A stretch of DNA of 64,000 bases, taken from positions 1 through 64,000 of the forward strand of contig CANDBT010000004.1 of the NCBI GenBank assembly GCA_947383005.1, written 5' to 3'. A program made the position numbers and the translations under genes. The notes under the pieces are model-generated. The model saw nothing but the letters and a program-made list of their open reading frames with translations, was not told where the DNA came from and made no database searches. This DNA comes from an uncultured bacterium (GTDB lineage: Bacteria; Bacillota; Clostridia; Lachnospirales; Lachnospiraceae). Positions 1,234 through 17,252 of this stretch are shown one piece after another (position 1 is the first letter of the stretch; every line of letters starts with the position of its first letter).

Positions 1234-2328
1234 ATGGAAAGCGTTGTTGATGATTTGAAAAAGATAAAGGCGGTTGCGATTTATGGGGCGGGGATTGTCG
1301 CATATAATATCGCATGCGTGTTGAAAGCCGTTTATGGGATAAAAATCCTTTGTTTTTTTGTGTCGGACCTGTCGGATACCCATTTTTTTGGCGGGATCCG
1401 GGCAGAAGTATATTCGGAAGAAAAATTTTATCAGTATAAAAAACCTTTGATTATTGTCGCGACACCAGAGGAGTACCATGAAGAAATTATCAAACGTCTG
1501 TCTTTTGGCAGTAAGAAAAAATATTATCTTGTAAACTCTTCTTTAGAATATGATCTCATGAAAATGTTTTATAAGAAAAGAAGGCCATTTATGACCGTTG
1601 AAGATCTCCCGGAAGACGCGACGACGGAGAATACGGCCGATGGTAAAACTATTGAAGTTTATATGGCCAAAAGCATATGGGATAAACCTCTTAAAAAGAC
1701 ATATGAAATTCCAAACTGGACGATTCCGGTTCATGCGGGAAGGAAATTGACGAAGCAGAAACTGTCAGATAATACAGATGATTTTATTGGAGGGATATCC
1801 GGGCGAAATAAGAATTATTGTGAACTGACCGTGACCTATTGGGCGTGGAAAAAGAGACATTCCTCGTATATGGGGATTTGTCATTATCGGAGAATATTTG
1901 CATTATCTGCGCAAGATATAAAAAAAATTATAAAAAATGATATTGATGTGATACTCCCGGTTCCGTTTCTGTGTAGCCCGGACGCCTCCGAACAGTATTT
2001 CCGGTATATAACAAAAGAAGACTACACCGTCTTTATGAAAATTATATCGGAATTATACCAGGAAGCGGAAACAAAAATTATTCAAATATTACATTCAGAC
2101 TATGTTTATAATTATAATATGCTGATCGCGAAAGAAGAGATATTCCATCAGTACTGTGAGTTCCTGTTTTCTGTTCTGTTTGAGATGGAAAGCTATTTTA
2201 AAAGACAGGGGATCCGGCGGGAAGATCGGTATTTGGGATATTTTGGGGAATTGCTTACCACGATCTTCTTTTCATTGCATGATAAAGATTTTAAAATCGC
2301 ACATGCGAAGAGATTGTGGCTGGTATAA
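1234..2328 (+). CDS. DUF4422 family glycosyltransferase with N-terminal Rossmann module
   Basis: The 364-residue product has two parts. Residues about 10-110 are a Rossmann-like module (AIYGAGIVAYN, then a strand ending in FFVSD). Residues about 128-364 match the DUF4422 family of capsular polysaccharide glycosyltransferases: IEVYMAKSIWDKPL at the front, then IPVHAG, a DNTDDFIGGISGRN segment, TYWAWKK and MGICHYRRIF. DUF4422 enzymes are predicted GT-A-like cytosolic glycosyltransferases; donor and acceptor cannot be read from sequence. The start ATG lies one base after the upstream stop. The N-terminal module is the same kind found in most neighbours, suggesting a shared cofactor or sugar-nucleotide-binding or assembly function. 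Confidence 0.8.
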   Translation: MESVVDDLKKIKAVAIYGAGIVAYNIACVLKAVYGIKILCFFVSDLSDTHFFGGIRAEVYSEEKFYQYKKPLIIVATPEEYHEEIIKRLSFGSKKKYYLVNSSLEYDLMKMFYKKRRPFMTVEDLPEDATTENTADGKTIEVYMAKSIWDKPLKKTYEIPNWTIPVHAGRKLTKQKLSDNTDDFIGGISGRNKNYCELTVTYWAWKKRHSSYMGICHYRRIFALSAQDIKKIIKNDIDVILPVPFLCSPDASEQYFRYITKEDYTVFMKIISELYQEAETKIIQILHSDYVYNYNMLIAKEEIFHQYCEFLFSVLFEMESYFKRQGIRREDRYLGYFGELLTTIFFSLHDKDFKIAHAKRLWLV

Positions 2329-2421
2329 GGTCAATTTCAAAGAGAACCGCGCGCATTTTCCAGAGGGGATATGTCTGGAGGGCACATATCATAATAATAT
2401 CCAGGAAGGAATAAGGAATAT

Positions 2422-2787
2422 ATGATAGTGAGAAAATGGCTGGAAAACCAATGTAACGGAAAGTATTGGAAGGACTATTTACATACATACGGATACAGCA
2501 AAATTGCACTATACGGCGCAGGGGAATTGGGGCGATACCTTGCGATGGAATTGCGGTCCAGCGAGATAAAAGTTATTGTCTATGTAGATCGGAACGCACA
2601 TGAATTGAAGGAAGTTTACCATATCCCTGTTGTTACATTGGAAGAATTTATCCGTACGTTTGGACATGAAGTAGATGCCCTTATCGTTACGGCAGTTTCT
2701 GCAGATCGGGAGGTGCTGCATGAAATGGTATGCAGGCTTCCAGAGCTGCCAGTGATGTCACTGCGGGATATGATATTTGAAATGTGA
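2422..2787 (+). CDS. small stand-alone Rossmann-fold protein
   Basis: This 121-residue protein consists of little more than one Rossmann unit: IALYGAGELGRYLAMEL at residues about 28-45 (GxGxxG type), a second strand ending in the acidic VIVYVDRN, a switch region PVVTLEEF and a further strand ALIVTAVSA. The same module is fused to the glycosyltransferases and methyltransferases around it, so this looks like the unfused version. It resembles the N-terminal domain of PglD-type sugar O/N-acyltransferases and the NAD-binding unit of nucleoside-diphosphate-sugar enzymes, but no catalytic half is present. The 93-base gap upstream contains no recognised gene. The downstream glycyl radical enzyme begins 15 bases after its stop. 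Confidence 0.65.
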   Translation: MIVRKWLENQCNGKYWKDYLHTYGYSKIALYGAGELGRYLAMELRSSEIKVIVYVDRNAHELKEVYHIPVVTLEEFIRTFGHEVDALIVTAVSADREVLHEMVCRLPELPVMSLRDMIFEM

Positions 2788-2802
2788 GAGGTGAACGACA
2801 AA

Positions 2803-4812
2803 ATGAAGGATATATATATTCCTGGTTTGGATGAGGATGCCCGGCTGCATAAAAAGAAGCAGGACGGAAGCCTTTTGCGGGAAAGGGAGGATTACAAAAA
2901 AATCTACGCAAAAGAATTTTTCAATGTATATAATGAGGGCACGGTGGCTGACGGGTTTGTCTGCATGTGCCGAAATCAAAGAATATATATTGATGAAAAT
3001 TGGCAGTTTGTGTATTTTATTGATTACGCCTACGCATTGGATAAGATAAGAGGGTATCGCTTTGGAAATCTAACACCGTCCTATGAAATCCTTTTGTCAC
3101 ACAGCCTGTCCGAACTGAAATATTCCGATCCAGCTACACCGTTTTGTGTTGATTATAATAAGATAATAGACGGAATGGAGTGTATGGTTCAAAGGATTAT
3201 TGAGGAAATCAGGCACAGCAATACAAAAAGATTAGCAGATAAAATAAAGTGGTTTGAAAATTTGAGGATAAAGCCGGCAAAACATTTCGAGGAAGCGCTG
3301 CAAAGGATTTTGTTTGTCAATCAGATTATGTGGCAGACAGACCACTATTTGACCGGATTGGGCAGCTTAGATCAATTATTATATCCGTATTATGAACGGG
3401 ATGTAAAAACCGGATACACTGATGAAAAGACGGTGAAAGAACAACTTAGAGAATTTCTTCAGATTTTACATCAGTATTATTGGTATAAGAGCAGTATGCT
3501 AATGGGGGATACCGGGCAGATTATTGTTTTAGGAGGGTCAGAAAAAGAGGGAAACTATCGATATAATATATTGACAGAGCAGTTTTTGGATTTAGTTCAG
3601 GAACTGCAGCTTCCAGATCCAAAACTGCTGTTGCGGGTAAATGAGAAAACTCCGGAAAAAATATGGAAAAAGGCGCTGACCTGTATCGGGACAGGTGTGG
3701 GATCGCCGATTTTTTCCAATGACCAGGTAATCATTCCGGCTTTGGAGGCTTTTGGAATAGAGGAAGAGGATGCACGCAGTTATGGCGTATCTGCGTGTTG
3801 GGAACCTTTGATTGCAGGGAAAAGCGTTTCATTGAACAATATGACAACCCTTAATTATATGAGGCCCATGGAGAATCTGTTCAGACGGGAACAACTGTCA
3901 AGACTGGAAACCTTTGATGAGTTTACGGAATGTTATATTACTTATTTGGGAAGGAATCTCAATGCAGTCAAGCGTGTTTTGACAAACGCACGTTTTCAGT
4001 ATGATCCGGTTTTGTCTGTATTTATTGACGGCTGCAGGGAAAAACAAAAGGATGCTTCGTGGGGAGGAGCGAAATATTTTCATGCAGGCATTACCTCTGT
4101 TGCATTAGGAAATGTGATTGAGGTGTTACTTAATATCAAGAAATATGTTTATGAAGAGAAAAACTATTCTCTTATTGAAATTAAGCGGATGATTCTGACA
4201 AATTATGAGGGGATGGAAAGTGAACAGAAAAAACTGAAATCGAAGAAGCGTTATTTTGGTACGGATGAAGAAGAAGTGATTCAATTAACAAAGAAAATCA
4301 TGGCTGCGACAACGCGTTTCACCAAAGATTACAGAAATGAATATGGGGGAAAGCTTAAATTTGGATTAAGCGCTCCCACATATATCGATGCAGCCGTTGA
4401 CATGTATGCGTCTTTCGATGGCAGAAAATACGGGGCTCCTTTCGTTGTCCATATCTCGAATGAAACGGCGGATTCTTATACGGAGATTCTGAATTTCGCG
4501 TCGGCTCTTGATTATGGGGAAAACCGCTTTAATGGGAATGTGATTGATTTTATGGTTACGCCTGATTTTATTCGGAATAACATGGATAAATTTGTCACTC
4601 TCATGAAGGTTGGAATAAAAAAAGGAATTTTCCAGCTTCAGATGAATGTTGTCAGCAGCGAAACGCTGATTCGTGCCAAAGAGAATCCGGAGGCATTCCC
4701 CAATTTGATTGTCAGAGTTTGGGGATTTAGCGCGTTTTTTATTGACCTGCCGGATAATTACAAGGATATGCTGATCAGCAGGGCTCTGAAAAACGAAGGG
4801 AAAGAGGGATAA
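2803..4812 (+). CDS. glycyl radical enzyme (PFL/dehydratase superfamily), substrate unknown
   Basis: I start it at the ATG at 2803, which has GAGAGG 5' of it at a good distance; the GTG at 2791 sits inside that ribosome binding site. The product is about 669 residues, short against pyruvate formate-lyase (about 760) and choline lyase (about 850). Both hallmark sites are present. The glycyl radical loop RVWGFSAFF has its radical glycine near residue 641, about 28 residues from the end. The thiyl-radical cysteine lies in SACWEP near residue 332. The Cys-x-Glu-Pro pattern is that of eliminating lyases and dehydratases; PFL has Cys-Cys. Known glycyl radical eliminases act on glycerol, propanediol, choline, isethionate or hydroxyproline. 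Here the neighbours are glycan genes, so a glycan precursor or linked polyol is a reasonable but unproven substrate. The cognate activase follows after 5 bases. Confidence 0.85.
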   Translation: MKDIYIPGLDEDARLHKKKQDGSLLREREDYKKIYAKEFFNVYNEGTVADGFVCMCRNQRIYIDENWQFVYFIDYAYALDKIRGYRFGNLTPSYEILLSHSLSELKYSDPATPFCVDYNKIIDGMECMVQRIIEEIRHSNTKRLADKIKWFENLRIKPAKHFEEALQRILFVNQIMWQTDHYLTGLGSLDQLLYPYYERDVKTGYTDEKTVKEQLREFLQILHQYYWYKSSMLMGDTGQIIVLGGSEKEGNYRYNILTEQFLDLVQELQLPDPKLLLRVNEKTPEKIWKKALTCIGTGVGSPIFSNDQVIIPALEAFGIEEEDARSYGVSACWEPLIAGKSVSLNNMTTLNYMRPMENLFRREQLSRLETFDEFTECYITYLGRNLNAVKRVLTNARFQYDPVLSVFIDGCREKQKDASWGGAKYFHAGITSVALGNVIEVLLNIKKYVYEEKNYSLIEIKRMILTNYEGMESEQKKLKSKKRYFGTDEEEVIQLTKKIMAATTRFTKDYRNEYGGKLKFGLSAPTYIDAAVDMYASFDGRKYGAPFVVHISNETADSYTEILNFASALDYGENRFNGNVIDFMVTPDFIRNNMDKFVTLMKVGIKKGIFQLQMNVVSSETLIRAKENPEAFPNLIVRVWGFSAFFIDLPDNYKDMLISRALKNEGKEG

Positions 4813-4817
4813 ACGCA

Positions 4818-5579
4818 ATGGAGCATCTGGTCACCAATATTCAGAGAATGTGTATGCAGGATGGCCCGGGAATACGGACTACGGTGTTTATGAAAGGATG
4901 CGGCATTCATTGCCCATGGTGTTCCAATCCGGAAAACCTGTTATTTGAAAAAGAGGAATATGCCCGTGCGGACGGTAAAGGAGTGTACGGCAGAAGTTAT
5001 TCAATTGATGAGCTTTACCAGGAGATAATAAAGGATAAAGCTTATTGGAACCCGGATGGCGGAGTGACTTTTTCCGGGGGAGAGGCTTTGCTGCATATGG
5101 ATTTCCTTCGGGCGCTTTTTCAACGTTTCAAAGATCAGGGGGTCCATCTGGCTGTCGAGACGTCATTGTTTGTTCCGGAAAGATTGGTGCAGGATGCGTT
5201 GAAATATGTTGACTTTTTTTATGTGGATGTCAAAATTCTCGATGCGGAAAAATGCAGGACGCTGTTGGGCGGGGATAGCATGCTGTATCGCAGGAATGTG
5301 GATACCTTGTCTCACAGCGGAAAAAAAATTTGTTTCCGGATACCATGTGCGGAGCAATATACTTTGCAAGAAGATAATAAAGAATTGGTTTTGAAGTTTG
5401 TCAAACAATACAGGGAAATCCCGATAGAAATCTTTAAGCTACATAGGATGGGAGAATCCAAGTATCAAAGCCTGAGGAAACAAATGATCGAGGACGATGA
5501 TTGCAGTGATATGGCATTTAAGGATTTTTTTGAACATTTAAAACAGCAGGGAAATCATGTATCTGTGATCCGATTGTAG
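4818..5579 (+). CDS. glycyl radical enzyme activating enzyme (radical SAM)
   Basis: The 253-residue product carries the CGIHCPWC (CxxxCxxC) 4Fe-4S motif at residues 28-35, the position it has in pyruvate formate-lyase activase. It is preceded by GPGIRTTVFMKGC and followed by CSNPEN and the SAM-contacting GGVTFSGGEALL around residue 85. It is the short activase type without the inserted ferredoxin-like 8-Cys domain common in dehydratase activases. It cleaves S-adenosylmethionine and abstracts hydrogen from the glycine of its partner, certainly the enzyme just upstream (spacing 5 bases, same strand). Both proteins are cytosolic and need anaerobic conditions. Confidence 0.9.
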   Translation: MEHLVTNIQRMCMQDGPGIRTTVFMKGCGIHCPWCSNPENLLFEKEEYARADGKGVYGRSYSIDELYQEIIKDKAYWNPDGGVTFSGGEALLHMDFLRALFQRFKDQGVHLAVETSLFVPERLVQDALKYVDFFYVDVKILDAEKCRTLLGGDSMLYRRNVDTLSHSGKKICFRIPCAEQYTLQEDNKELVLKFVKQYREIPIEIFKLHRMGESKYQSLRKQMIEDDDCSDMAFKDFFEHLKQQGNHVSVIRL

Positions 5580-5591
5580 ACAGGGAGAAGA

Positions 5592-7124
5592 ATGAAGGAT
5601 ATTTTTGAACGAATAAAAGGAAAAAAGCTGGCTATTTGGGGAGTAGGTATTTTACAGACAGATTTGGAAGGATTGTTTTCATTGGAAAAGATTTCTTACT
5701 ATATTGATGATGATATTCAGGATAAGAATCTGATCAGTGTACAAAGAGAAGATATCTGCTCATCTACAGTATTTGCGCAGGAAAAAGGACAGGATGTCTT
5801 TGTTATCATATGCACAGACGATCAGGATTACGCAGTTGCCAGCCTGGTCAATATGGGCTTTACGAAAGAAGATTATATATTTGGCGAGGAACTTCTGATC
5901 AATTATGATATTTATAAAAAAATACATAGCCAGAAAAGTTCAATTTGGGGAACAGGCAACACCTATTCTTATTTTGAAGAGGAGATCAGGGAGTATCTTC
6001 CCGGAGTGGAAAACTTTGTTGTTTCCCATAAAACAACGGAAAGCTTTATGGGCAAGCCGGTTATCGGTTGGAATACGCAGGAAAAGAAGGGGAAAGACAC
6101 CTATATTGTGGTGGCCAGTATTTATTACCATGAAATTTACAAGACATTGACAGATTCGGGATGGAAGCCGGGAAAGGATTTTATCCATCTTTATACTCTG
6201 ATTTCATTGGGAAATCTGTCTACCAGAATCCATGCGGCTTATCGGTTCGATGACCGAAGGAAAAAGTCAAAAGATTTGTTAGTGGTTTTGGCCGGATATA
6301 AGGAATTTGTGTGGGAGAGCGTGTTCCCGCGAATTCAAGCATACGTTCCAGCGGAAACCGATGTTTGTGTCGTGACCAGCGGACTGGTTAATGAACGACT
6401 GAGAGAGATGTGCCATTGTTATCAATGGTCTTATATGAGTACGGAAAAAAATCATGTTTCTCTCGTGGTGAATATGGCAATATGGCTGCATCCCGACGCG
6501 GAATACATATATAAGATAGATGAAGATATCTTTGTGACAAAAGGTGTTTTTGAGAGTATGAAAGATACCTACATTCGGGTACAGAAAAGTTCACGGTACG
6601 AAGTGGGGTTTGTAACTCCGCTGATACCGGTTAATGGATATGGGTATGTCCGTGTATTAGAGATTTTTGGAGGCGATAAGCTGTGGGAAGAAAAATTCGG
6701 TGAATTGAAGTATACAGACTGTTACTGTCATCATAAGACCGTCCATGACAATCCCAAAGCTGCGCGCTTTTTATGGGGGGATGAAAATCCTCAAATGGGG
6801 TCCCTGGAATCTATGGCGGACAGATTAAGAAATCTGCCATTTTCTTACTCTGTCTGTCCTATTCGTTATAGCATTGGCTTTATTCTCTTTCGGAGGGATG
6901 ACTGGGTCAGAATGGGGATGTTGCCTGTCTGGGAACACAGCAACATGGGTTCCGATGAAATATATTTGTGCAAATACTGTTTGAACCAGGCCAGAGCAAT
7001 GGTCGTGGATGAAAATTCTATTGCCGGGCATCTTTCATACGGGCCACAGCATAAAGAGATGGAGTCGTTTTATCGGGAACACAGAGAAAAGTTTTTGCTG
7101 CCGGGAGGAGACGAAAATGAGTAG
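5592..7124 (+). CDS. two-Rossmann-module glycosyltransferase, copy 1
   Basis: The 510-residue product has three parts: a first Rossmann module (LAIWGVGILQTDLEGLF, acidic turn YIDDD), a second (SSIWGTGNTYSYF, near residue 115), and a C-terminal region from about residue 225. That region has LLVVLAGYKEFVWE, a strand VCVVTSG, and KIDEDIFVT near residue 307, which looks like a DxD-type metal and nucleotide-sugar site of a GT-A fold. Later landmarks are VGFVTPLIPVNGYGY and AGHLSYG near the end. The next gene encodes a full-length paralogue with the same three-part layout, so the pair arose by tandem duplication. It follows the activase by 12 bases. I do not recognise a named family; the glycosyltransferase call is inferred from the DxD strand and the context. 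Confidence 0.6.
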   Translation: MKDIFERIKGKKLAIWGVGILQTDLEGLFSLEKISYYIDDDIQDKNLISVQREDICSSTVFAQEKGQDVFVIICTDDQDYAVASLVNMGFTKEDYIFGEELLINYDIYKKIHSQKSSIWGTGNTYSYFEEEIREYLPGVENFVVSHKTTESFMGKPVIGWNTQEKKGKDTYIVVASIYYHEIYKTLTDSGWKPGKDFIHLYTLISLGNLSTRIHAAYRFDDRRKKSKDLLVVLAGYKEFVWESVFPRIQAYVPAETDVCVVTSGLVNERLREMCHCYQWSYMSTEKNHVSLVVNMAIWLHPDAEYIYKIDEDIFVTKGVFESMKDTYIRVQKSSRYEVGFVTPLIPVNGYGYVRVLEIFGGDKLWEEKFGELKYTDCYCHHKTVHDNPKAARFLWGDENPQMGSLESMADRLRNLPFSYSVCPIRYSIGFILFRRDDWVRMGMLPVWEHSNMGSDEIYLCKYCLNQARAMVVDENSIAGHLSYGPQHKEMESFYREHREKFLLPGGDENE

Positions 7125-8655
7125 CCTGTTGGAGAAAATCGCGTCAAAAAAAGTGATTATCTGGGGAATAGGGGCGATCCAACTGGATATGGAAGCATTG
7201 TTTCCAGTGATAAAAGCGGCATATTATGTAGATGACCGATTGGAAGAGAAAGGCAGGCGCATCCAGGACAGTGATAAAAAACGGGCTTTTGCCCCTCAAA
7301 ATTTACTGATGGAGAGAAAAGAGGATATATTTATACTTATCTGTGAGCAAAACAGAGATTCCGCCCTTGAGTTTCTTGATCGGAATGGATTCGCAAAAGG
7401 AATCCATTATGTAAGTTACGAGAGAATCCTCTATGAATTTTCTTCGGATAAATTTGCGAAAATATTTTTGGACTCAGAAATTGTGATTTGGGGAGCGGGG
7501 AAAACGTTCAGCGACTATAGGGAATACCTGGAAAAAACGTCAAAGGGAATATCGTTTTTAATTGACGGAGGCGAAGACAGGCCGGAATGGATGAACGGTT
7601 ATCAAGTGTTTGCGCCACAAGAAGGAATGAATATTCTGGCCGGCAGAAAGGTAATCGTAACAAGTACTTATTATCCGGTGATTCTGGAGGAACTACGCCG
7701 ATATGGATATTTGCCGGGAGAGAACTGCCTGTTTGTGGACACGTTTGAGGTTTTATGCAGGTATTACAAATTGTTTGCGCAGGTTTCGTATACGTTTGAG
7801 GACAGACGAAAGCAAGCCCCAAAAATGCTTTTAGTGTTGGCGGGATACAAGCCGGAACTGTGGGATTGTGTATTTGGGAGAATAAAACGTTTTGTGCCGG
7901 CAGAGTATGATATATGTGTTGCCAGCAGCGGATGCTATTTGGAAGAATTAAGTGATTTATGCGGACAGAACGGATGGTCTTATTTAAGTACGCAAAAGAA
8001 TAAGATATCGGTTATTGAGAATATTGCCTGTCACAGACATGACAGCGCCGATTGGGTTATTAAGATGGACGAGGATATTTTCCTTACTGAAAATACCGTT
8101 TCTGTATTGGAAAATACTTATCAGAGAGTTTCCGCCAGGGGGAGATATGAAGTCGGATTTGCCAGTCCGCTGATACCGGTGAATGGTTATGGTTATTCGA
8201 GGATACTTGATTTACTCAATCTGACAGAAGAGTGGGAAGAGGCATTTGGCCCGATTAAAATAACCGATGGCATACATCATCATAAAAAAATACTGGAAAA
8301 CGCAAATACCGCCAAATTTTTATGGAAAAAGATTATGATCGATGATGTAAGCAGGAAATTGGGGGAAAAGAAGTTCAGTTATTCCCTATGTCCGTCCAGA
8401 TATAGCATAGGGATGATTCTTTTTTCAAGAGAGTTATGGATAGACATGGGAATGTTTCCGGATATAGGGGATAATAATTTAGGAATGGATGAAAAGCATA
8501 TTACGGAATATTGCATGATGTCAGGCAAGGCGATGGTGATTGCGGAAAATACGGTTGCGGGGCATTTGGGATATAAGGAACAGACACAGAAAATGATGGA
8601 ATACTATAAAAATTCAATGTTCCAGGGAAAATGGAAATGTAATGGAGAAGCATAG
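7117..8655 (+). CDS. two-Rossmann-module glycosyltransferase, copy 2
   Basis: The start is the ATG at 7117, preceded by GGGAGGAG at 7103-7110. An upstream in-frame ATG at 7009 would add 36 residues with no match in the paralogue. The reading frame overlaps the previous gene by 8 bases, implying coupled translation. The 512-residue product repeats the layout of copy 1: VIIWGIGAIQLDMEALF, a second module with IVIWGAGKTF, then MLLVLAGYKPELWD, KMDEDIFLTEN near residue 315, VGFASPLIPVNGYGY, and AGHLGY near the end. The DxD-type segment and the tryptophan/tyrosine-rich flanks are the most conserved parts between the two copies, which supports them as the active site. The two may add successive residues or work as a pair. 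Confidence 0.6.
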   Translation: MSSLLEKIASKKVIIWGIGAIQLDMEALFPVIKAAYYVDDRLEEKGRRIQDSDKKRAFAPQNLLMERKEDIFILICEQNRDSALEFLDRNGFAKGIHYVSYERILYEFSSDKFAKIFLDSEIVIWGAGKTFSDYREYLEKTSKGISFLIDGGEDRPEWMNGYQVFAPQEGMNILAGRKVIVTSTYYPVILEELRRYGYLPGENCLFVDTFEVLCRYYKLFAQVSYTFEDRRKQAPKMLLVLAGYKPELWDCVFGRIKRFVPAEYDICVASSGCYLEELSDLCGQNGWSYLSTQKNKISVIENIACHRHDSADWVIKMDEDIFLTENTVSVLENTYQRVSARGRYEVGFASPLIPVNGYGYSRILDLLNLTEEWEEAFGPIKITDGIHHHKKILENANTAKFLWKKIMIDDVSRKLGEKKFSYSLCPSRYSIGMILFSRELWIDMGMFPDIGDNNLGMDEKHITEYCMMSGKAMVIAENTVAGHLGYKEQTQKMMEYYKNSMFQGKWKCNGEA

Positions 8656-8693
8656 AAACGAGACAAGGTGTCAATGGATGAAAGGAGATTGCT

Positions 8694-9866
8694 ATGGATT
8701 CAACGATGGAGCTGTTTGAGAAGGAAAGATATGAAGATATCATAAACGTATATAAGATGCTGGAGGACGATTTGTCGAAAAAGGTGTTTTTAAACCGTCT
8801 ATTATATTCTATCAGCGAATTAAAAGAATATCTTATGCATATGGTGCGGGATTCTTATAGAGAAAAACGGGGCAAATATCATGTAAATGAAAAACTACTG
8901 CTGCTGTGCGAAAGAATATGCATGGAACGGAAACCATGCAGAATTGCCCTTTTTGGAACAGGAGATGGAGCGATAACCGTTATTCAGTTACTATATGAAT
9001 ATGGAATGCTTACGAATCCGGATGTAGAGGTGTTTTTTGTGGATAATGACAGAGGCAAACAAGGAACCCTCTATAGCCATCATAATCCGGCAATGAGGCT
9101 TCCGGTTTATCCACCCTCAAAATTGGATAACAAAGACGAAAATTTATATGTTCTGATTTCCGTAATTGATTACAATAATCACGAAGAAATTTATAATCAA
9201 TTGATGGATATGGGAATTCCGGATAATAGGGTTTTTCGCTCTATACCAGGATATGAATATAATCTGGAAAACATTTATTTTGAAAAAGGGATCATGGTTC
9301 CACGAAAAGGGGATGTTTTTTGTGACATTGGCGCATACGATATGTGGAATACGGAGCAGTTCATAAAATTTTGTCCGGAATATGGGAATGTATACGCCTT
9401 TGAGGCGGATCCGGTTTCTTTTGAAAAGTGTCAGGAAAATATAATCAAAAAACAACTATGTCGTGTAGAGGCATTTAATTTAGGCGTTTGGTCTGAGTCA
9501 TCAGAAATTTCCTTTGAAAGCGCTCCAAATGGAGAATATGGAGGATCAAGAATTTCAGAACAGGGGACTTTGGCAGTGAAGACAGTTGCTTTGGATGAAT
9601 TTCTTGCTGATAAGAAGATCGATATTATCAAGATGGATATAGAGGGAGCGGAATGGGAGGCATTAAAAGGCGCCAGAGCGATTATCGAAAAACAGAAGCC
9701 ATGTCTATGCCTGTCTGTTTATCACAAAAAATGGGATATATTGGAGCTGCCTTTATATATCAAATCGCTGAACCCGGGATATAAATTTTATATGCGGCAT
9801 CATACCTGGGGAATTTGGGATACGGTGCTGTACGCGATAGATGAAAAGCAAAGAAAACCCATATGA
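8694..9866 (+). CDS. FkbM family methyltransferase with N-terminal Rossmann module, copy 1
   Basis: The 390-residue protein starts at ATG 8694 behind AAGGAGA at 8682-8688. Residues about 80-180 are a Rossmann module (IALFGTGDGAITVIQLL, then FFVDNDRGKQG). From about residue 205 it is an FkbM-type SAM-dependent methyltransferase: DVFCDIGAYDM (SAM glycine loop), NVYAFEADPVSFEKC (acidic ribose ligand) and KMDIEGAEWEALKGA, the family signature near residue 313. FkbM enzymes O-methylate sugars or polyketide hydroxyls and are common in surface-glycan loci. The adjacent gene encodes a second enzyme of the same architecture. Methylation of the glycan assembled by the upstream transferases is the likely role. 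Confidence 0.85.
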   Translation: MDSTMELFEKERYEDIINVYKMLEDDLSKKVFLNRLLYSISELKEYLMHMVRDSYREKRGKYHVNEKLLLLCERICMERKPCRIALFGTGDGAITVIQLLYEYGMLTNPDVEVFFVDNDRGKQGTLYSHHNPAMRLPVYPPSKLDNKDENLYVLISVIDYNNHEEIYNQLMDMGIPDNRVFRSIPGYEYNLENIYFEKGIMVPRKGDVFCDIGAYDMWNTEQFIKFCPEYGNVYAFEADPVSFEKCQENIIKKQLCRVEAFNLGVWSESSEISFESAPNGEYGGSRISEQGTLAVKTVALDEFLADKKIDIIKMDIEGAEWEALKGARAIIEKQKPCLCLSVYHKKWDILELPLYIKSLNPGYKFYMRHHTWGIWDTVLYAIDEKQRKPI

Positions 9867-9878
9867 TCAGAAGAGAAC

Positions 9879-10973
9879 ATGATGAAAAATAACATGATGA
9901 AAAATAACACGAGAGAGTTATGGGAAAAGGCAGCGTATATCGATAAGAACCTGGCAGATGAAGAGACGAAATTTATTTTTGGGAACAGGCTTCTGTTCAG
10001 TATGACACAAGATATTTCATACATAAGGAACATACTGAAAGAGCTAAGCAGGTTTTCGATGGACAGGATAGCCAAAATTCCACAAAACGCGGATCTGGTT
10101 GTTTATGGCGCCGGGGCAAATTGTGATGCAGCGTTAAGTATCTGCGATTATTTTGGCAAAAAGGTAACATGTATTTGTGACCGTGATGAAAAAAAGCAGA
10201 GGGAAAGCTATTATAGAGGTGGGTTTAAGATTATTTCTCCCGATCAATTGGTGGGTGAATATGACAAGGATAAAACATTTGTTTTGATCAGTTCCACAAA
10301 ATACAAACAAGAGATCCTATGTTGGCTGTCTGGCTATTTTGTTCCGGATCATATTTTTAGCCTGTGTGGGGAAGAAACAATTTCTCCACATGGGGTTCAA
10401 TATTTTGATGAAGGTATTATACAATTAAGAGACAGGGAGGTTTTTGTGGACGGAGGGGCATATGATTTTGCTTCCAGTAAAATGTTATTAAGCAAATGTA
10501 AGGCGGAAAAGATATATGTTTTTGAACCGGACAAAGTGAATTTAGAAAAGATAAGAAACGGAATAAATGAATATAAAAATGTGAATATTTCTTTGTTTCC
10601 TAACGGTTTATGGGATAAGGAAGAAACGCTATGTTTTGAGGCAGACGGAACAATCGGTTCACATATTTCAGAAAAAGGAAATACAAAGATCCATACGGTA
10701 ACACTGGATGAAGTGGTGAAAGAAAAGGTGACTTATATAAAAATGGATATTGAAGGGGCAGAATTGAAGGCATTGACCGGGGCGGCGGGATTGATCAGGA
10801 AATATAAGCCCAAGTTAGCCATATGTGTATATCATAAGCCGGAAGATATTATAGAGATACCGGATTATATTTTGTCAATCGTCCCTGAATACAAATTATA
10901 TCTCAGACATTATTCCTGGAATGCGTCAGAAACTGTATTATATGCTGTTTTGCCAACAGGTAACGGGTATTAA
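9879..10973 (+). CDS. FkbM family methyltransferase with N-terminal Rossmann module, copy 2
   Basis: The 364-residue product has a Rossmann module (LVVYGAGANCDAALSIC, acidic end ICDRDEKKQ) followed by the FkbM domain: EVFVDGGAYDFAS near residue 190, IYVFEPDKVNLEKI, and the signature KMDIEGAELKALTGA near residue 287. The start is ambiguous. The first 30 bases are a perfect tandem duplication of a 15-base unit (ATGATGAAAAATAAC), offering starts at 9879, 9882, 9894 and 9897 with only a weak upstream purine tract. It is paralogous to the upstream methyltransferase and follows it by 12 bases. The role is probably O-methylation of a second position or sugar. Confidence 0.83.
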   Translation: MMKNNMMKNNTRELWEKAAYIDKNLADEETKFIFGNRLLFSMTQDISYIRNILKELSRFSMDRIAKIPQNADLVVYGAGANCDAALSICDYFGKKVTCICDRDEKKQRESYYRGGFKIISPDQLVGEYDKDKTFVLISSTKYKQEILCWLSGYFVPDHIFSLCGEETISPHGVQYFDEGIIQLRDREVFVDGGAYDFASSKMLLSKCKAEKIYVFEPDKVNLEKIRNGINEYKNVNISLFPNGLWDKEETLCFEADGTIGSHISEKGNTKIHTVTLDEVVKEKVTYIKMDIEGAELKALTGAAGLIRKYKPKLAICVYHKPEDIIEIPDYILSIVPEYKLYLRHYSWNASETVLYAVLPTGNGY

Positions 10974-10975
10974 AG

Positions 10976-11986
10976 ATGGATGCGAAAAATGTTTTATTGC
11001 TTACAGGCGCAACAGGTATGATCGGCGGCGCTCTTTTACGGGCTGCATGGGAAAGAAATTCGTTTAGCAGGATTGTTTTGCCGGTTAGAAATATTGATAA
11101 GGCAAAGAAAATTTATCATGATCTGCAAGAGATAAATGATCAGAGGCTGGATTTCGTAGAAACTCAGATAGAGGATCTTTGTACAAAGCAATTTCCTATG
11201 CCGGTCGATTATATTATTCACTGTGCTTGCGTAACCCAGTCCAAAGAGATGGTCACTCATCCTGTGGAAACAGCAGACAGTATTGTCATGGGAACCAAAA
11301 ATATTCTTGAGCTTGCCAAGGACAAGCAGGTTCGTTCTATGGTATATCTATCCTCTATGGAAGTATACGGAAAAACGGAAGATACGGGAACGCTGGTTCG
11401 GGAGGATCAGCTTGGCGAGATTGATTTGAAGTCTGCAAGAAGCAGTTATCCTATGGGAAAACGCATGGCAGAACATTACTGTTATCTTTACCAGCAAGAG
11501 TATGGTGTTCCGGTTAAAATTGCCAGGCTGGCACAGACTTTTGGAAAAGGGGTTAGCCCAGAGGACAAAAGAGTATATGCGCAGTTTGCCCGTGCCGTAG
11601 AAAAAAAAGAAAATATTGTTTTGAAAACGCAAGGAACGTCTATGGGGAATTACTGCTCTTTGGATGATGTAGTAGAAGGAATATTTTTTATTCTTAATAA
11701 CGGGCAGGACGGAGAGGCTTATAATGTTGTAAATGAAGCGAATACTATGCGAATTTGCGAGATGGCGGAATTGGTAGCAAAAAAGGTTGCGGGTGGCAGC
11801 ATAAAAGTGACATATGATGTCCAGGAGGGCAACCCATTTGGTTATGCGCCGGATACCGGGCTTCGATTGTCGGGTGAGAAGTTAAGGAGGCTTGGGTGGG
11901 AAGCGAAAGGAAGCCTTGAAGAGATGTATTGTGTATTGTTGCGTGATTTTGAAAATTGTTCTGTTGAAGGTTATACTTACCGTTGA
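10976..11986 (+). CDS. NAD-dependent epimerase/dehydratase (extended SDR)
   Basis: The 336-residue product is a classical extended short-chain dehydrogenase. The nucleotide-binding motif TGATGMIGGALL lies at residues 9-20, and SSMEVYG supplies the catalytic serine region. The active-site pair is in YPMGKRMAEHY (Tyr-x-x-x-Lys, near residue 157), and the substrate-domain RLAQTFG and YNVVNEAN follow. Such enzymes epimerise, dehydrate or reduce nucleotide-activated sugars in the cytosol; the exact reaction is not readable. It starts 2 bases after the methyltransferase stop and is the last gene of this operon, followed by a strong terminator. Confidence 0.85.
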   Translation: MDAKNVLLLTGATGMIGGALLRAAWERNSFSRIVLPVRNIDKAKKIYHDLQEINDQRLDFVETQIEDLCTKQFPMPVDYIIHCACVTQSKEMVTHPVETADSIVMGTKNILELAKDKQVRSMVYLSSMEVYGKTEDTGTLVREDQLGEIDLKSARSSYPMGKRMAEHYCYLYQQEYGVPVKIARLAQTFGKGVSPEDKRVYAQFARAVEKKENIVLKTQGTSMGNYCSLDDVVEGIFFILNNGQDGEAYNVVNEANTMRICEMAELVAKKVAGGSIKVTYDVQEGNPFGYAPDTGLRLSGEKLRRLGWEAKGSLEEMYCVLLRDFENCSVEGYTYR

Positions 11987-14941: not shown

Positions 14942-14972
14942 CAGATGAAATTTATATATGGGGGAGCAGAAG

Positions 14973-17252
14973 ATGGAACTGAATTTGTGTATGGGGTGTA
15001 TGAAAGAGATGGGGAATCGGGATGTCTGCCCTTATTGCGGCTTCCAAAAGGACAGGTATAAGCCAAATTCTTACCATCTTCCGTTAGAAACGATTTTGGC
15101 CGGTAAGTATTTGGTAGGCAGGGTGATTGGGGAGGGAGGATTTGGGATCACTTATGTCGGGTATGATTTGGTGCAGAGGGATAAAATCGCCATAAAAGAA
15201 TTTTATGTCCGGGAGCTGGCCGTCAGGGATATTCACAGTTCCGGAGGGTTAGCGATAACCGCGGGCTCCCAAAGCGGGATTTTCCAGCAGGAGAAGAGAA
15301 AATTTTTGGAGGAAGCCCAGCGTCTGGCCAGATTTTGGGGCCTTCCGGGAATCGTGGAGGTAAGGGATTTTTTCCAGGAAAACGAGACTGCTTATATTAT
15401 CATGGAATTTGTGGAGGGGCAGACGCTCCAGCAGGTGGTAGACGGGCAGGGCGGGCAGATGAGGCCGGAACAGGTGCTGGAACTGATGAAACCGGTTATG
15501 GAATCCCTGGAAAAGGTGCATCAGGCCGGACTGATCCATCGGGATATCAGTCCGGATAATATCATGATAACACCGGAAAAAAAGGGAAAGCTCATTGACT
15601 TTGGCGCTGCCAGGAATTTCATCCAAAGAGCCCAAAACATGTCGGTGATTTTAAAGCCCCATTACGCCCCGCTGGAACAGTACAGCAGCAATGGAAGGCA
15701 GGGGCCGTGGACAGACGTCTATGCCTTGTGTGCCACGATGTACCAGGCGATTACCGGGCGCCTGCCGGATCTGGCTACGGACCGCCAGGAACAGGACCGC
15801 CTGAAATATCCTTCGGAGTTGGGGATTAAGATGCCGAAAAACCAGGAAGCGGCATTGATGAAAGGGCTGTCTTTGCCCGCCGGGGAGCGTTTTCAGTCTA
15901 TGGGAGAGCTGATGAGGGCCTTGTCATCCCCGCAATTCGGTTTGGATTCCGGGAGGGAGAAAACCGGCCAGGCAGGGCGCGGATTTAAAGCGGAAATGAA
16001 GGCTGGGCAGGCGAAAAACAGAGGAAAAACAGAAATGAAGCCCCAAAGGCCAGGAAGGAGCGGGCAGTCTGCGGAAGAAAAAAAGCTCCCGGGGAAAATG
16101 ATGATAGGAGTGGGAATGTTGTGCGGATGCCTGATCCTGATCTTTTTGCTTGTGCCGGTTCTTTTTTCCCGGGAAGGAAGGCAGAATAGCGATTCGTCTG
16201 CCCGTCCGGAAGAAATGGTTTCTTCGGGAAACAGGGATGGATCTCCGGATGATGCAAAAGGATGGGGAGAAAATATCCTGATGGAAGATTACGTCAAGCC
16301 CCGCGATGAAAATAAGATGGTTTTGGGGAGCGATACCCGCAGGGAAATGATTTCCCGCATCCATTTCCTTCCCAGTTTAGCGGATGCACCGGATGACAGT
16401 TGGGATGTATCGGCCGCCGGGGACGGGGGAGTTATGGCCTGGCTTGAGCCTGACGGCGATAAATATGTTTTATACATAGCCGGGGAAGGCGGGGTCTGCG
16501 CTAACGAGAAAAGCAATGGGATTTTTGCCTTCTATACGGAAATGACGGATATCGATTTTGGATCGTGTTTTGACACTTCCCAGACGAAAGACATGAGTGC
16601 GATGTTCAGCGGCTGTGAAAGCCTGGCCGAACTGGATTTAAGCAGTTTTGACACCCGGCAGGTGACGGATATGGGATTTATGTTCCAGAACTGTAAGAGG
16701 CTGGGCAAATTGGATTTAAGCAGCTTTGACACTTCCCGAGTGACGGATATGACCCATATGTTCCTGGGAATGGAAAAGCTGGCTGATTTGGATATCCGCC
16801 ATTTTGACACTTCCCAGGTGACGGATATGAGCTGGATGTTTGAGAATTGCAGCAGCCTGAAGCGCCTGGATGTCAGCCATTTTGACACTTCCCAGGTAAC
16901 CGGTATGAGGGGCATGTTTTTCTTGTGCGGCGGATTGGAGGAATTGGATGTCAGTCATTTTAATACCTCCCAGGTAACGGATATGGGCAATATGTTTGAT
17001 AATTGCAGCAGTTTGGCACAACTGGACGTCAGCCATTTTGATACCTCCCAGGTGACGGATATGGGGGACATGTTTGAAGAGTGCAGCAGTTTAACGCGGC
17101 TGGATGTCACTCATTTTAATACTTCCCAGGTAACGAATATGAATGGCATGTTTAGGGGATGCAGCGCGTTGGCAGAACTGGATACCAGCGGTTTCGATAA
17201 AACGAAGGTGGAAGATGACGGGCAGATGATGGAAAGGACCATTTGGGAGTAA
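14973..17252 (+). CDS. receptor-like Ser/Thr protein kinase with DUF285 (BspA-like) ectodomain, copy 1
   Basis: The start is ATG 14973, preceded by GGGGGAG at 14960-14966; the ATG at 14958 overlaps that site, and the paralogue downstream begins with the same MELNLCMGCM. The 759-residue protein begins with a zinc-ribbon-like CMGCM/CPYCGF. A Hanks-type kinase domain follows: IGEGGFGITYVG glycine loop, catalytic Lys in IAIKEFY near residue 73, HRDISPDN near 188 and DFGAAR near 208. Then come a basic low-complexity linker and one membrane segment (about 374-398, GMLCGCLILIFLLVPVLF). The C-terminal 225 residues are about eight 24-residue DUF285 repeats of the form FDTSQVTDMxxMF. Topology predicts a cytosolic kinase and an external sensor or adhesion domain, so outer signals could control phosphorylation inside. 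Targets are unknown. Confidence 0.88.
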   Translation: MELNLCMGCMKEMGNRDVCPYCGFQKDRYKPNSYHLPLETILAGKYLVGRVIGEGGFGITYVGYDLVQRDKIAIKEFYVRELAVRDIHSSGGLAITAGSQSGIFQQEKRKFLEEAQRLARFWGLPGIVEVRDFFQENETAYIIMEFVEGQTLQQVVDGQGGQMRPEQVLELMKPVMESLEKVHQAGLIHRDISPDNIMITPEKKGKLIDFGAARNFIQRAQNMSVILKPHYAPLEQYSSNGRQGPWTDVYALCATMYQAITGRLPDLATDRQEQDRLKYPSELGIKMPKNQEAALMKGLSLPAGERFQSMGELMRALSSPQFGLDSGREKTGQAGRGFKAEMKAGQAKNRGKTEMKPQRPGRSGQSAEEKKLPGKMMIGVGMLCGCLILIFLLVPVLFSREGRQNSDSSARPEEMVSSGNRDGSPDDAKGWGENILMEDYVKPRDENKMVLGSDTRREMISRIHFLPSLADAPDDSWDVSAAGDGGVMAWLEPDGDKYVLYIAGEGGVCANEKSNGIFAFYTEMTDIDFGSCFDTSQTKDMSAMFSGCESLAELDLSSFDTRQVTDMGFMFQNCKRLGKLDLSSFDTSRVTDMTHMFLGMEKLADLDIRHFDTSQVTDMSWMFENCSSLKRLDVSHFDTSQVTGMRGMFFLCGGLEELDVSHFNTSQVTDMGNMFDNCSSLAQLDVSHFDTSQVTDMGDMFEECSSLTRLDVTHFNTSQVTNMNGMFRGCSALAELDTSGFDKTKVEDDGQMMERTIWE
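16567..17200 (+). repeat. tandem 72-bp repeats encoding DUF285 units, copy 1
   Basis: About eight successive 72-bp units, each starting near TTTTGACACTTCCCAGGTGA and encoding FDTSQVTDM, lie at the end of the first kinase gene. They differ by point changes but stay in frame, so unequal recombination could change the number. They are coding repeats and not a CRISPR array: there are no unique spacers. Confidence 0.8.

Follow-up and report, generated by a model that had tools for sequence, protein, structure and literature searches.

A short glycyl radical enzyme and its activase in a surface-glycan operon of a Lachnospiraceae bacterium: a candidate dehydratase for furanose diols

The known role of glycyl radical enzyme (GRE) eliminases is a catabolic one, which raises the question of what such an enzyme might do among genes for surface-glycan assembly. 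The case considered here is a short GRE and its radical-SAM (S-adenosylmethionine) activase, encoded near the start of a 64,000-nt stretch of DNA from an uncultured Lachnospiraceae bacterium (hereafter the window: positions 1 to 64,000 of contig CANDBT010000004.1, assembly GCA_947383005.1). We conclude that this GRE very probably has a role in glycan assembly, and that it probably catalyzes an elimination, judging from its motifs. With its activase, it may form a dedicated pair for surface-glycan assembly that dehydrates a furanose diol before export, with galactofuranose (Galf) as the first choice, a proposal to which we give somewhat less than an even chance; that Galf itself or a Galf-bearing glycan is the substrate is a possibility held more loosely still. 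If true, this would be a first case of a GRE at work in the assembly of polysaccharides. What would be new is the place, as the GRE chemistry itself is known. Among the papers listed by searches of an open-access library, covered by titles and the beginnings of abstracts, we found no description of a GRE in glycan assembly.

The GRE and its activase

The GRE gene occupies an open frame on the plus strand (2791-4812) that encodes 673 residues from a GTG at 2791 or 669 residues from an ATG at 2803 (residue numbers below are counted from the GTG). The ATG is the better start because GAGAGG (2786-2791) precedes it but overlaps the GTG, which is the less likely start. Matches over the Pfam cut-offs were obtained to PFL-like (PF02901, 2e-65), Gly_radical (PF01228, 1.1e-12), and the broad YjjI-like model (6e-10; 38.5 against a cut-off of 23). 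The original prediction, made by a model from the letters alone, had described an intact RVWGFSAFF glycyl radical loop and a Cys-x-Glu-Pro site in a protein of about 669 residues, and direct translation and Pfam confirm this description. With a PFL-like barrel, an active-site Cys, a glycyl loop and an adjoining activase, the window protein is, by its sequence, a complete GRE; chance is excluded because the 18 full-length members of the clade described below, 38-52% identical to the window protein, all keep the Cys, the Glu and the Gly.

The closest solved structures in the Protein Data Bank (PDB) are GREs, including 8id0, glycerol dehydratase and CutC. A structure predicted from a four-sequence alignment (pLDDT 61, pTM 0.62, with pLDDT below 50 in the stretches around N93, D240, C336, N350 and G645) is a weak model that served for fold recognition only, and with it Foldseek tentatively placed the protein among the GREs of the PDB (top matches 1r8w and 5i2g).

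The activase gene starts at 4818, closely behind the GRE stop at 4812. Its product contains CGIHCPWC (4899-4922, direct translation) and exceeds the NCBIfam cut-off for PFLE_PFLC (TIGR02494; 209.8 bits against 174.35), and the 75 residues past this motif hold no Cys, so the earlier assignment to the short type was correct. Across the clade, 18 of 19 loci have an activase gene within three genes of the GRE and on its strand; the remaining locus is a contig of 3.5 kb.

A clade outside the known GRE families

The loci were gathered by searching genomes and contigs, and the clade of the window GRE was sorted by score from another group of short GREs with the same Cys-Trp-Glu (CWE) site. Its 19 loci are the window, the own-genome paralogue (L004/L005), L006-L008, L041-L050 and L072-L075 (L-numbers are the locus labels of this analysis). 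Counts out of 19 include a broken copy in L048, while counts out of 18 and the tree leave it out. Because of the low identities given above, these loci are not clones.

The distribution is patchy: 11 of 397 family genomes and 8 of 392 order genomes (an overlapping sample) contained a clade member, whereas among 24 congeners and 398 phylum-wide genomes there was one each, both times the own genome; for the family, order and phylum counts, two or three candidates were scored per genome. A contig search gave five matches, among them an ordinary GRE (L009) and a match of 68 residues (L010). The own genome carries its second copy (46% identical to the window GRE) on another contig, with a small Rossmann-like gene before and an activase gene after it. 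In viral contigs, two short patterns picked out 56 stretches, none of them confirmed; among plasmids, 53 records had a match, all below 60% identity, with the 15 listed at 24-28%.

Two loci are unusual. In L048 (5646-7022), the 458-aa open frame of the GRE copy stops within the match and lacks the glycyl loop, and a truncated UDP-galactopyranose mutase gene lies at the end of the contig; the GRE reads as a decaying accessory copy. The L007 contig (3.5 kb) comes from a Methanobrevibacter metagenome-assembled genome, and its clade GRE directly follows an apparent flippase fragment; either the gene was transferred to an archaeon or the contig was mis-binned.

An unrooted tree was built for 61 GREs (LG+C20 with SH-aLRT support, quick method). 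It joins the 18 clade rows in one group (SH-aLRT 100), whose stem measures 1.35 changes per column, and 16 short CWE GREs in a separate group (support 99). Rows of the glycerol/1,2-propanediol dehydratase (GD/PD) type, HypD, CutC, PflD and YbiW fell outside both (HypD was labeled by curated cut-off, CutC by annotation, PflD and YbiW from E. coli K-12, and the five GD/PD rows by Cys-loop motif and length only, without a curated model). Being unrooted, the tree leaves the sisterhood of the two CWE groups unsettled, and 10 of its 18 clade rows have an unusual amino-acid composition, beyond what tree models allow for. The window GRE also scored below the cut-offs of the NCBIfam equivalogs HypD, CutC, HpsG/HpfG, PflD-type (PRK09983), HPAD, IAD, PflB and YjjI, and reached 244 bits against 678.2 for the broad PFL2-3 subfamily. 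Placement within a known clade such as glycerol or propanediol dehydratase, which the original prediction had named as the contrary outcome, is thus not what we found: the enzyme lies outside this type and the other known clades that could be placed.

Glycan genes around the clade GREs

The commonest partners of the clade GREs are the activase (18/19), a homologue of the flippase Wzx (12/19, within two genes of the GRE in 11) and a Galf-transferase-like gene (12/19). Either Wzx within two genes, or a gene of GlfT-like or DUF4422 type within four, is present in 16 loci, the exceptions being L005, L041 and L007. The relatives therefore do have glycan neighbors, whose absence the original prediction had named as a second contrary outcome, but the particular combination pictured there is not constant, since within nine genes DUF4422 was found in 4 of 19 loci, an FkbM-type cluster in 3 and a two-Rossmann cluster in 3.

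A Pfam tally of 121 neighbors within four genes of the 19 GREs gave family 2 glycosyltransferases (GT2) 13 times, Polysacc_synt 11, DUF4422 4, Wzy_C 4, GLF 3, pyruvyltransferase 3 and LicD 2. None of these glycan families was found for the 51 neighbors of eight GREs of the other CWE group among the 25 of 47 families listed (the tallies list 25 families each, of 90 for the clade and 128 for the controls below). Two loci join the systems physically: L044 encodes a GT2-GRE fusion of 988 aa, and L042 a GT2-activase fusion of 746 aa whose GT2 part carries GGSGGF.

A different gene set is found at the own-genome paralogue, namely IspD fused to an SDR (short-chain dehydrogenase/reductase), an NTP-transferase fused to a kinase (APH), and ribulose-phosphate 3-epimerase. 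By eye, the genes at L041 are similar, and the IspD-SDR protein of L041 has ribitol-5-phosphate cytidylyltransferase 4jis as best PDB match (1.3e-33). This cassette surrounds the GRE in two genomes (L004:11197-14132 and L005:11187-11876; L041), also with a HAD-like gene, and its composition suggests a CDP-alditol pathway. In L072 (1-4392), genes resembling a thiamine-pyrophosphate enzyme, an Fe-dependent alcohol dehydrogenase and a nucleotidyltransferase lie beside a LicD-like gene, which by eye resembles a pathway of phosphonate decoration.

Association with galactofuranosyltransferase-like genes

A GT2 with a GGxGGF-type motif lies within four genes of the GRE in 9 of the 19 loci. DUF4422 corresponds to the GT111 domain of WbbM, which has UDP-Galf transferase activity (PMC12269835, in part). 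Taken together, GlfT-like GT2 or DUF4422 genes are present within four genes in 12 of 19 GRE loci and in none of 34 control loci, which were centered on a flippase gene in genomes of the same family, own genome included (Fisher 2e-7, the test taking loci as independent). With both sets centered on Wzx, a Galf-type gene was found in 7 of 11 GRE loci against 0 of 19 controls. The motif-bearing GT2 is encoded immediately upstream of the GRE in six loci, against 0.8 expected (0 of 20,000 permutations), and in L044 it is the part joined to the GRE in the fusion.

A profile of these GT2s (A6, nine sequences) gave galactofuranosyltransferases as its best PDB matches (9dtp, 1.4e-13; GlfT2 4fix, 1.8e-12). 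With a GlfT profile, the controls reached 5e-18 at best, compared to 3e-33 for L042 and 1e-86 for L044, both fused proteins outside the training set, which supports the motif-based count. The controls are themselves glycan loci, with GT2 found by Pfam 24 times among 145 neighbors of 20 loci (that scan took 145 of 150 neighbors from 20 of the 34 loci, with four large proteins plus one more left out); some of their contigs are short (4-10 genes), and the center of L114 is a fragment. A regular expression for GT2-like proteins was dropped, as it gave 3 matches in the 34 controls where Pfam gave 24 GT2s in 20. Likewise, we rejected inferring Galf from UDP-galactopyranose mutase alone, which is over the cut-off in 135 of 150 family genomes (and in 14 of 15 GRE genomes).

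The galactan locus pamABC of Kingella kingae combines GT111, a mutase and a GT2 Galf transferase, the kinds of Galf genes that lie beside many clade GREs; unlike at the clade loci, no GRE is mentioned in the portion of the source at hand (PMC12269835).

Active site and N-terminus

We compared the clade with five GD/PD-type, three HypD, two CutC, two PflD and three YbiW rows. Five features are common to both CWE groups and absent from every reference row: Trp as the x of CxE, N93 in place of His (Asp in CutC), D240 in place of Tyr, Phe or Ser, D276-P-K278 in place of QPS/QPN, and Trp ahead of the radical Gly. Within the clade, L007 departs at two of these columns (Gly at N93, Cys ahead of the radical Gly), and one member has Glu at D276. 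R172, N583, D586 (18/18 each) and E565 (17/18) were found in the glycan clade only, among the rows compared.

The N-terminus of the clade is shortened next to the active-site loop, because N93 is preceded by 60-113 residues (the count for L044 starting at a cut), compared to 155-219 for the reference families, and this may open the substrate pocket. The first 60 residues carry a charge of +6 to +14 in 14 of 18 members (L044 counted behind the GT2 cut), compared to -4 to +7 in 43 other GREs, and these basic N-termini would fit a membrane-side substrate.

The B12-independent glycerol/1,2-propanediol dehydratase resembles the window GRE in its PFL-like barrel, thiyl Cys, CxE and glycyl loop. However, chain 1r8w_A (786 residues) exceeds the window GRE by 113 residues, and the window GRE also differs by the Trp in CxE, Asn93 and Asn350, its separate clade and its glycan context. 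The short CWE GREs of sugar-catabolic loci (L022-L034, L068, L069 and L071, mostly ~690 aa) share with the clade C-W-E, the RVWG loop, GD[TN]GQ, DPK, the Asn93/Asn350 columns and, for the most part, the shortened N-terminus. They have other loop residues (e.g., WGWSGY, NGGP), and in eight loci (L051-L058) their neighbors are genes for sugar transport, kinase, aldolase and aldo-keto reductase; three of these GREs that were scanned lay far under the NCBIfam cut-offs. PflD and YbiW are CxE GREs with sugar-like ligands (1,5-anhydrohexitol 6-phosphates by the PDB titles of 8id0 and 8id7), so that sugar-ring substrates are possible for GREs; unlike the clade, they have C-V/I-E, His at the N93 column and full length, and in E. 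coli their genes adjoin those for a phosphotransferase system, sugar-phosphatase and aldolase. Radical elimination on a sugar within a biosynthetic pathway is known from the radical-SAM enzymes AprD4 and DesII, which have another fold and radical source, whereas here a GRE is paired with a separate activase.

Proposed function

GREs with CxE are eliminases whose Glu contacts a substrate hydroxyl (PMC7077986, in part), which backs the original prediction on the meaning of this pattern, and it is from CxE that we infer elimination chemistry. The activase would use SAM to place a radical on G645, which would pass to C336 as a thiyl radical. Hydrogen abstraction from a sugar unit by this thiyl radical would follow, and E338 would help water leave the neighboring carbon, giving a deoxy carbonyl sugar as in radical diol dehydration. 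The substrate would most likely be a furanose with an exocyclic 1,2-diol, Galf in the first place, activated or lipid-linked at the cytoplasmic face before the Wzx flip, and the product may be a deoxy or unsaturated unit. Galf bears an exocyclic 1,2-diol like the diols of glycerol and propanediol, and is attractive as a substrate for this reason. The GT2-GRE-Wzx gene order, the fusions and the basic N-termini favor action near the membrane, at or next to glycosyl transfer. In its most specific form, in which the GRE dehydrates the exocyclic diol of lipid-linked Galf before the Wzx flip to a deoxy-carbonyl furanose, under anoxic conditions only and coupled to, or sometimes fused with, a galactofuranosyltransferase-like enzyme, the proposal is unlikely to hold in every part.

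Several observations weigh against Galf dehydration. The GlfT motif was defined after the GRE loci had been seen, so the test was not blind. Taken alone, the GT2 of L044 has GalT1 as its best match (2.4e-05), with Galf transferases absent from its matches at E 0.001, and that of L042 matches chondroitin synthase first (1.8e-12) and then 9dtp (3e-10); L042 also has DUF4422, and dropping its GT2 leaves the count at 12. No Galf-transferase-like gene lies within four genes of the GRE in 7 of 19 loci (L005, L041, L043, L048, L050, L073, L007), of which L005 and L041 carry CDP-ribitol-type genes instead. A mutase gene within four genes of the GRE (3/19 loci, against 2/34 controls) adds little. The four members of the window's own subclade are without the basic N-terminus. 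Asn occupies the columns (N93, N350) of the GD/PD-type His (GH) and Asp (WHD), which have a role in substrate binding, so that the exact GD/PD-type diol chemistry is not assured. Finally, no aldehyde or alcohol dehydrogenase was found among the 25 of 90 clade neighbor families listed. For the loci lacking Galf-type genes, above all L005 and L041, the best explanation is a diol other than that of Galf, for example ribitol; a single enzyme family that uses diols in terminal or exocyclic position would account for these and the Galf-type loci alike.

A deeply separate clade tied to glycan assembly would bring GRE eliminase chemistry into the building of the cell surface, would predict surface structures of anaerobes that are made only without oxygen, and would point to sugars not yet seen. 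Owing to the link to Galf transferases, the question of the substrate can be approached with defined compounds.

Alternative explanations

The alternative that survives best, though rather unlikely in our view, is that the GRE takes water from a soluble polyol (ribitol, glycerol) or from its phosphate, and that the product is later CDP-activated or built into a phosphodiester-linked decoration, with neither Galf nor a lipid-linked glycan involved. The gene set of the paralogue locus (L004/L005), the similar set of L041 with its 4jis match, and LicD (2 of 121 neighbors) point this way, and GRE dehydratases classically act on terminal 1,2-diols. IspD, however, is found once among the 121 neighbors within four genes (that of L005 lies further out), in a tally that included no systematic search for polyol genes; moreover, GlfT-like or DUF4422 genes occur in 12 of 19 loci, and the fusions join glycosyltransferases.

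Removal of a group other than water, such as the amine of a choline or ethanolamine decoration, or opening of a sugar ring appears improbable for the window GRE. Other CxE GREs do provide precedents, CutC with C-N lyase chemistry and PflD/YbiW with their anhydrohexitol-phosphate ligands, and some loci have LicD and kinase/nucleotidyltransferase genes, but the count of LicD is low and the active-site columns are unlike those of CutC and PflD/YbiW.

We rejected as very improbable an ordinary fermentative dehydratase that lies in the glycan operon by chance, because, although the model suggests the fold of characterized GREs, whose eliminases to our knowledge act on small metabolites, Wzx or Galf-transferase-like genes are close by in 16 of 19 loci of such divergent members, two loci have fusions to GT2s, and catabolic neighbors belong to the other CWE group.

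The window operon

The contig begins at the first base of the window, so the window shows the operon without its upstream end, and nine genes on the same strand span 1234-11986 (Table 1). Of the neighbors described in the original prediction, the DUF4422 protein is borne out by Pfam and by a phmmer match to WbbM (6u4b, E 5.4e-19), while the small Rossmann protein has only matches below cut-off. A small Rossmann-like gene (127-138 aa) is also located immediately 5' of the GRE in L005, L041 and L042, and just upstream of it in all four members of the window subclade, the window included. The two genes downstream of the activase had been called glycosyltransferases, a plausible label; neither product has a Pfam match at 0.01, and the first has no PDB match at E 1. 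Homologues of the first lie near the GRE in L042 (-2) and L072 (-1). The frame of the second is open from 7009, with ATG 7117 as the chosen start.

Table 1. Genes and active-site motifs of the GRE operon in the window.
Feature	Position	Strand	Basis
Rossmann-like N-terminus + DUF4422 (GT111), 364 aa; probable galactofuranosyltransferase-type	1234..2328	+	PF14393 2.5e-43
Stand-alone small Rossmann-like protein, 121 aa, like NeuD/PglD N-terminus	2422..2787	+	TIGR03570 9.2e-07, below cut-off
Short GRE, 669 aa (673 from GTG 2791)	2803..4812	+	Pfam PFL-like + Gly_radical, tree, motifs
N93; His in GD/PD-type, HypD, PflD and YbiW rows, Asp in CutC	3067..3069	+	
D240-T-G-Q243; Asp and Gln invariant across both CWE groups	3508..3519	+	
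D276-P-K278; Lys invariant across both CWE groups; reference GREs QPS/QPN	3616..3624	+	
C336-W-E338-P; thiyl cysteine and CxE glutamate	3796..3807	+	Direct translation; Cys/Glu kept in 18/18
N350; Asp in GD/PD-type and PflD rows	3838..3840	+	
Glycyl radical loop RVWGFSAFF	4714..4740	+	Direct translation; Gly kept in 18/18 full-length members
Radical glycine G645	4723-4725	+	Within RVWGFSAFF
Cognate activase (radical SAM) of the short type, 253 aa, lacking a Cys-rich insert	4818..5579	+	
Two-Rossmann protein of 510 aa, probably with a GT-A domain	5592..7124	+	Read by eye
Paralogue of the 5592-7124 gene	7117..8655	+	
FkbM-family methyltransferase	8694..9866	+	PF05050 1e-18; TIGR01444 over cut-off
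FkbM-family methyltransferase	9879..10973	+	PF05050 9.2e-13; TIGR01444 over cut-off
NDP-sugar epimerase/dehydratase-type SDR	10976..11986	+	PF01370 1.2e-39

Elsewhere in the window, 14958-17252 encodes one protein in which, by eye, a protein kinase domain is followed by repeated "FDTSQVTDM" units.

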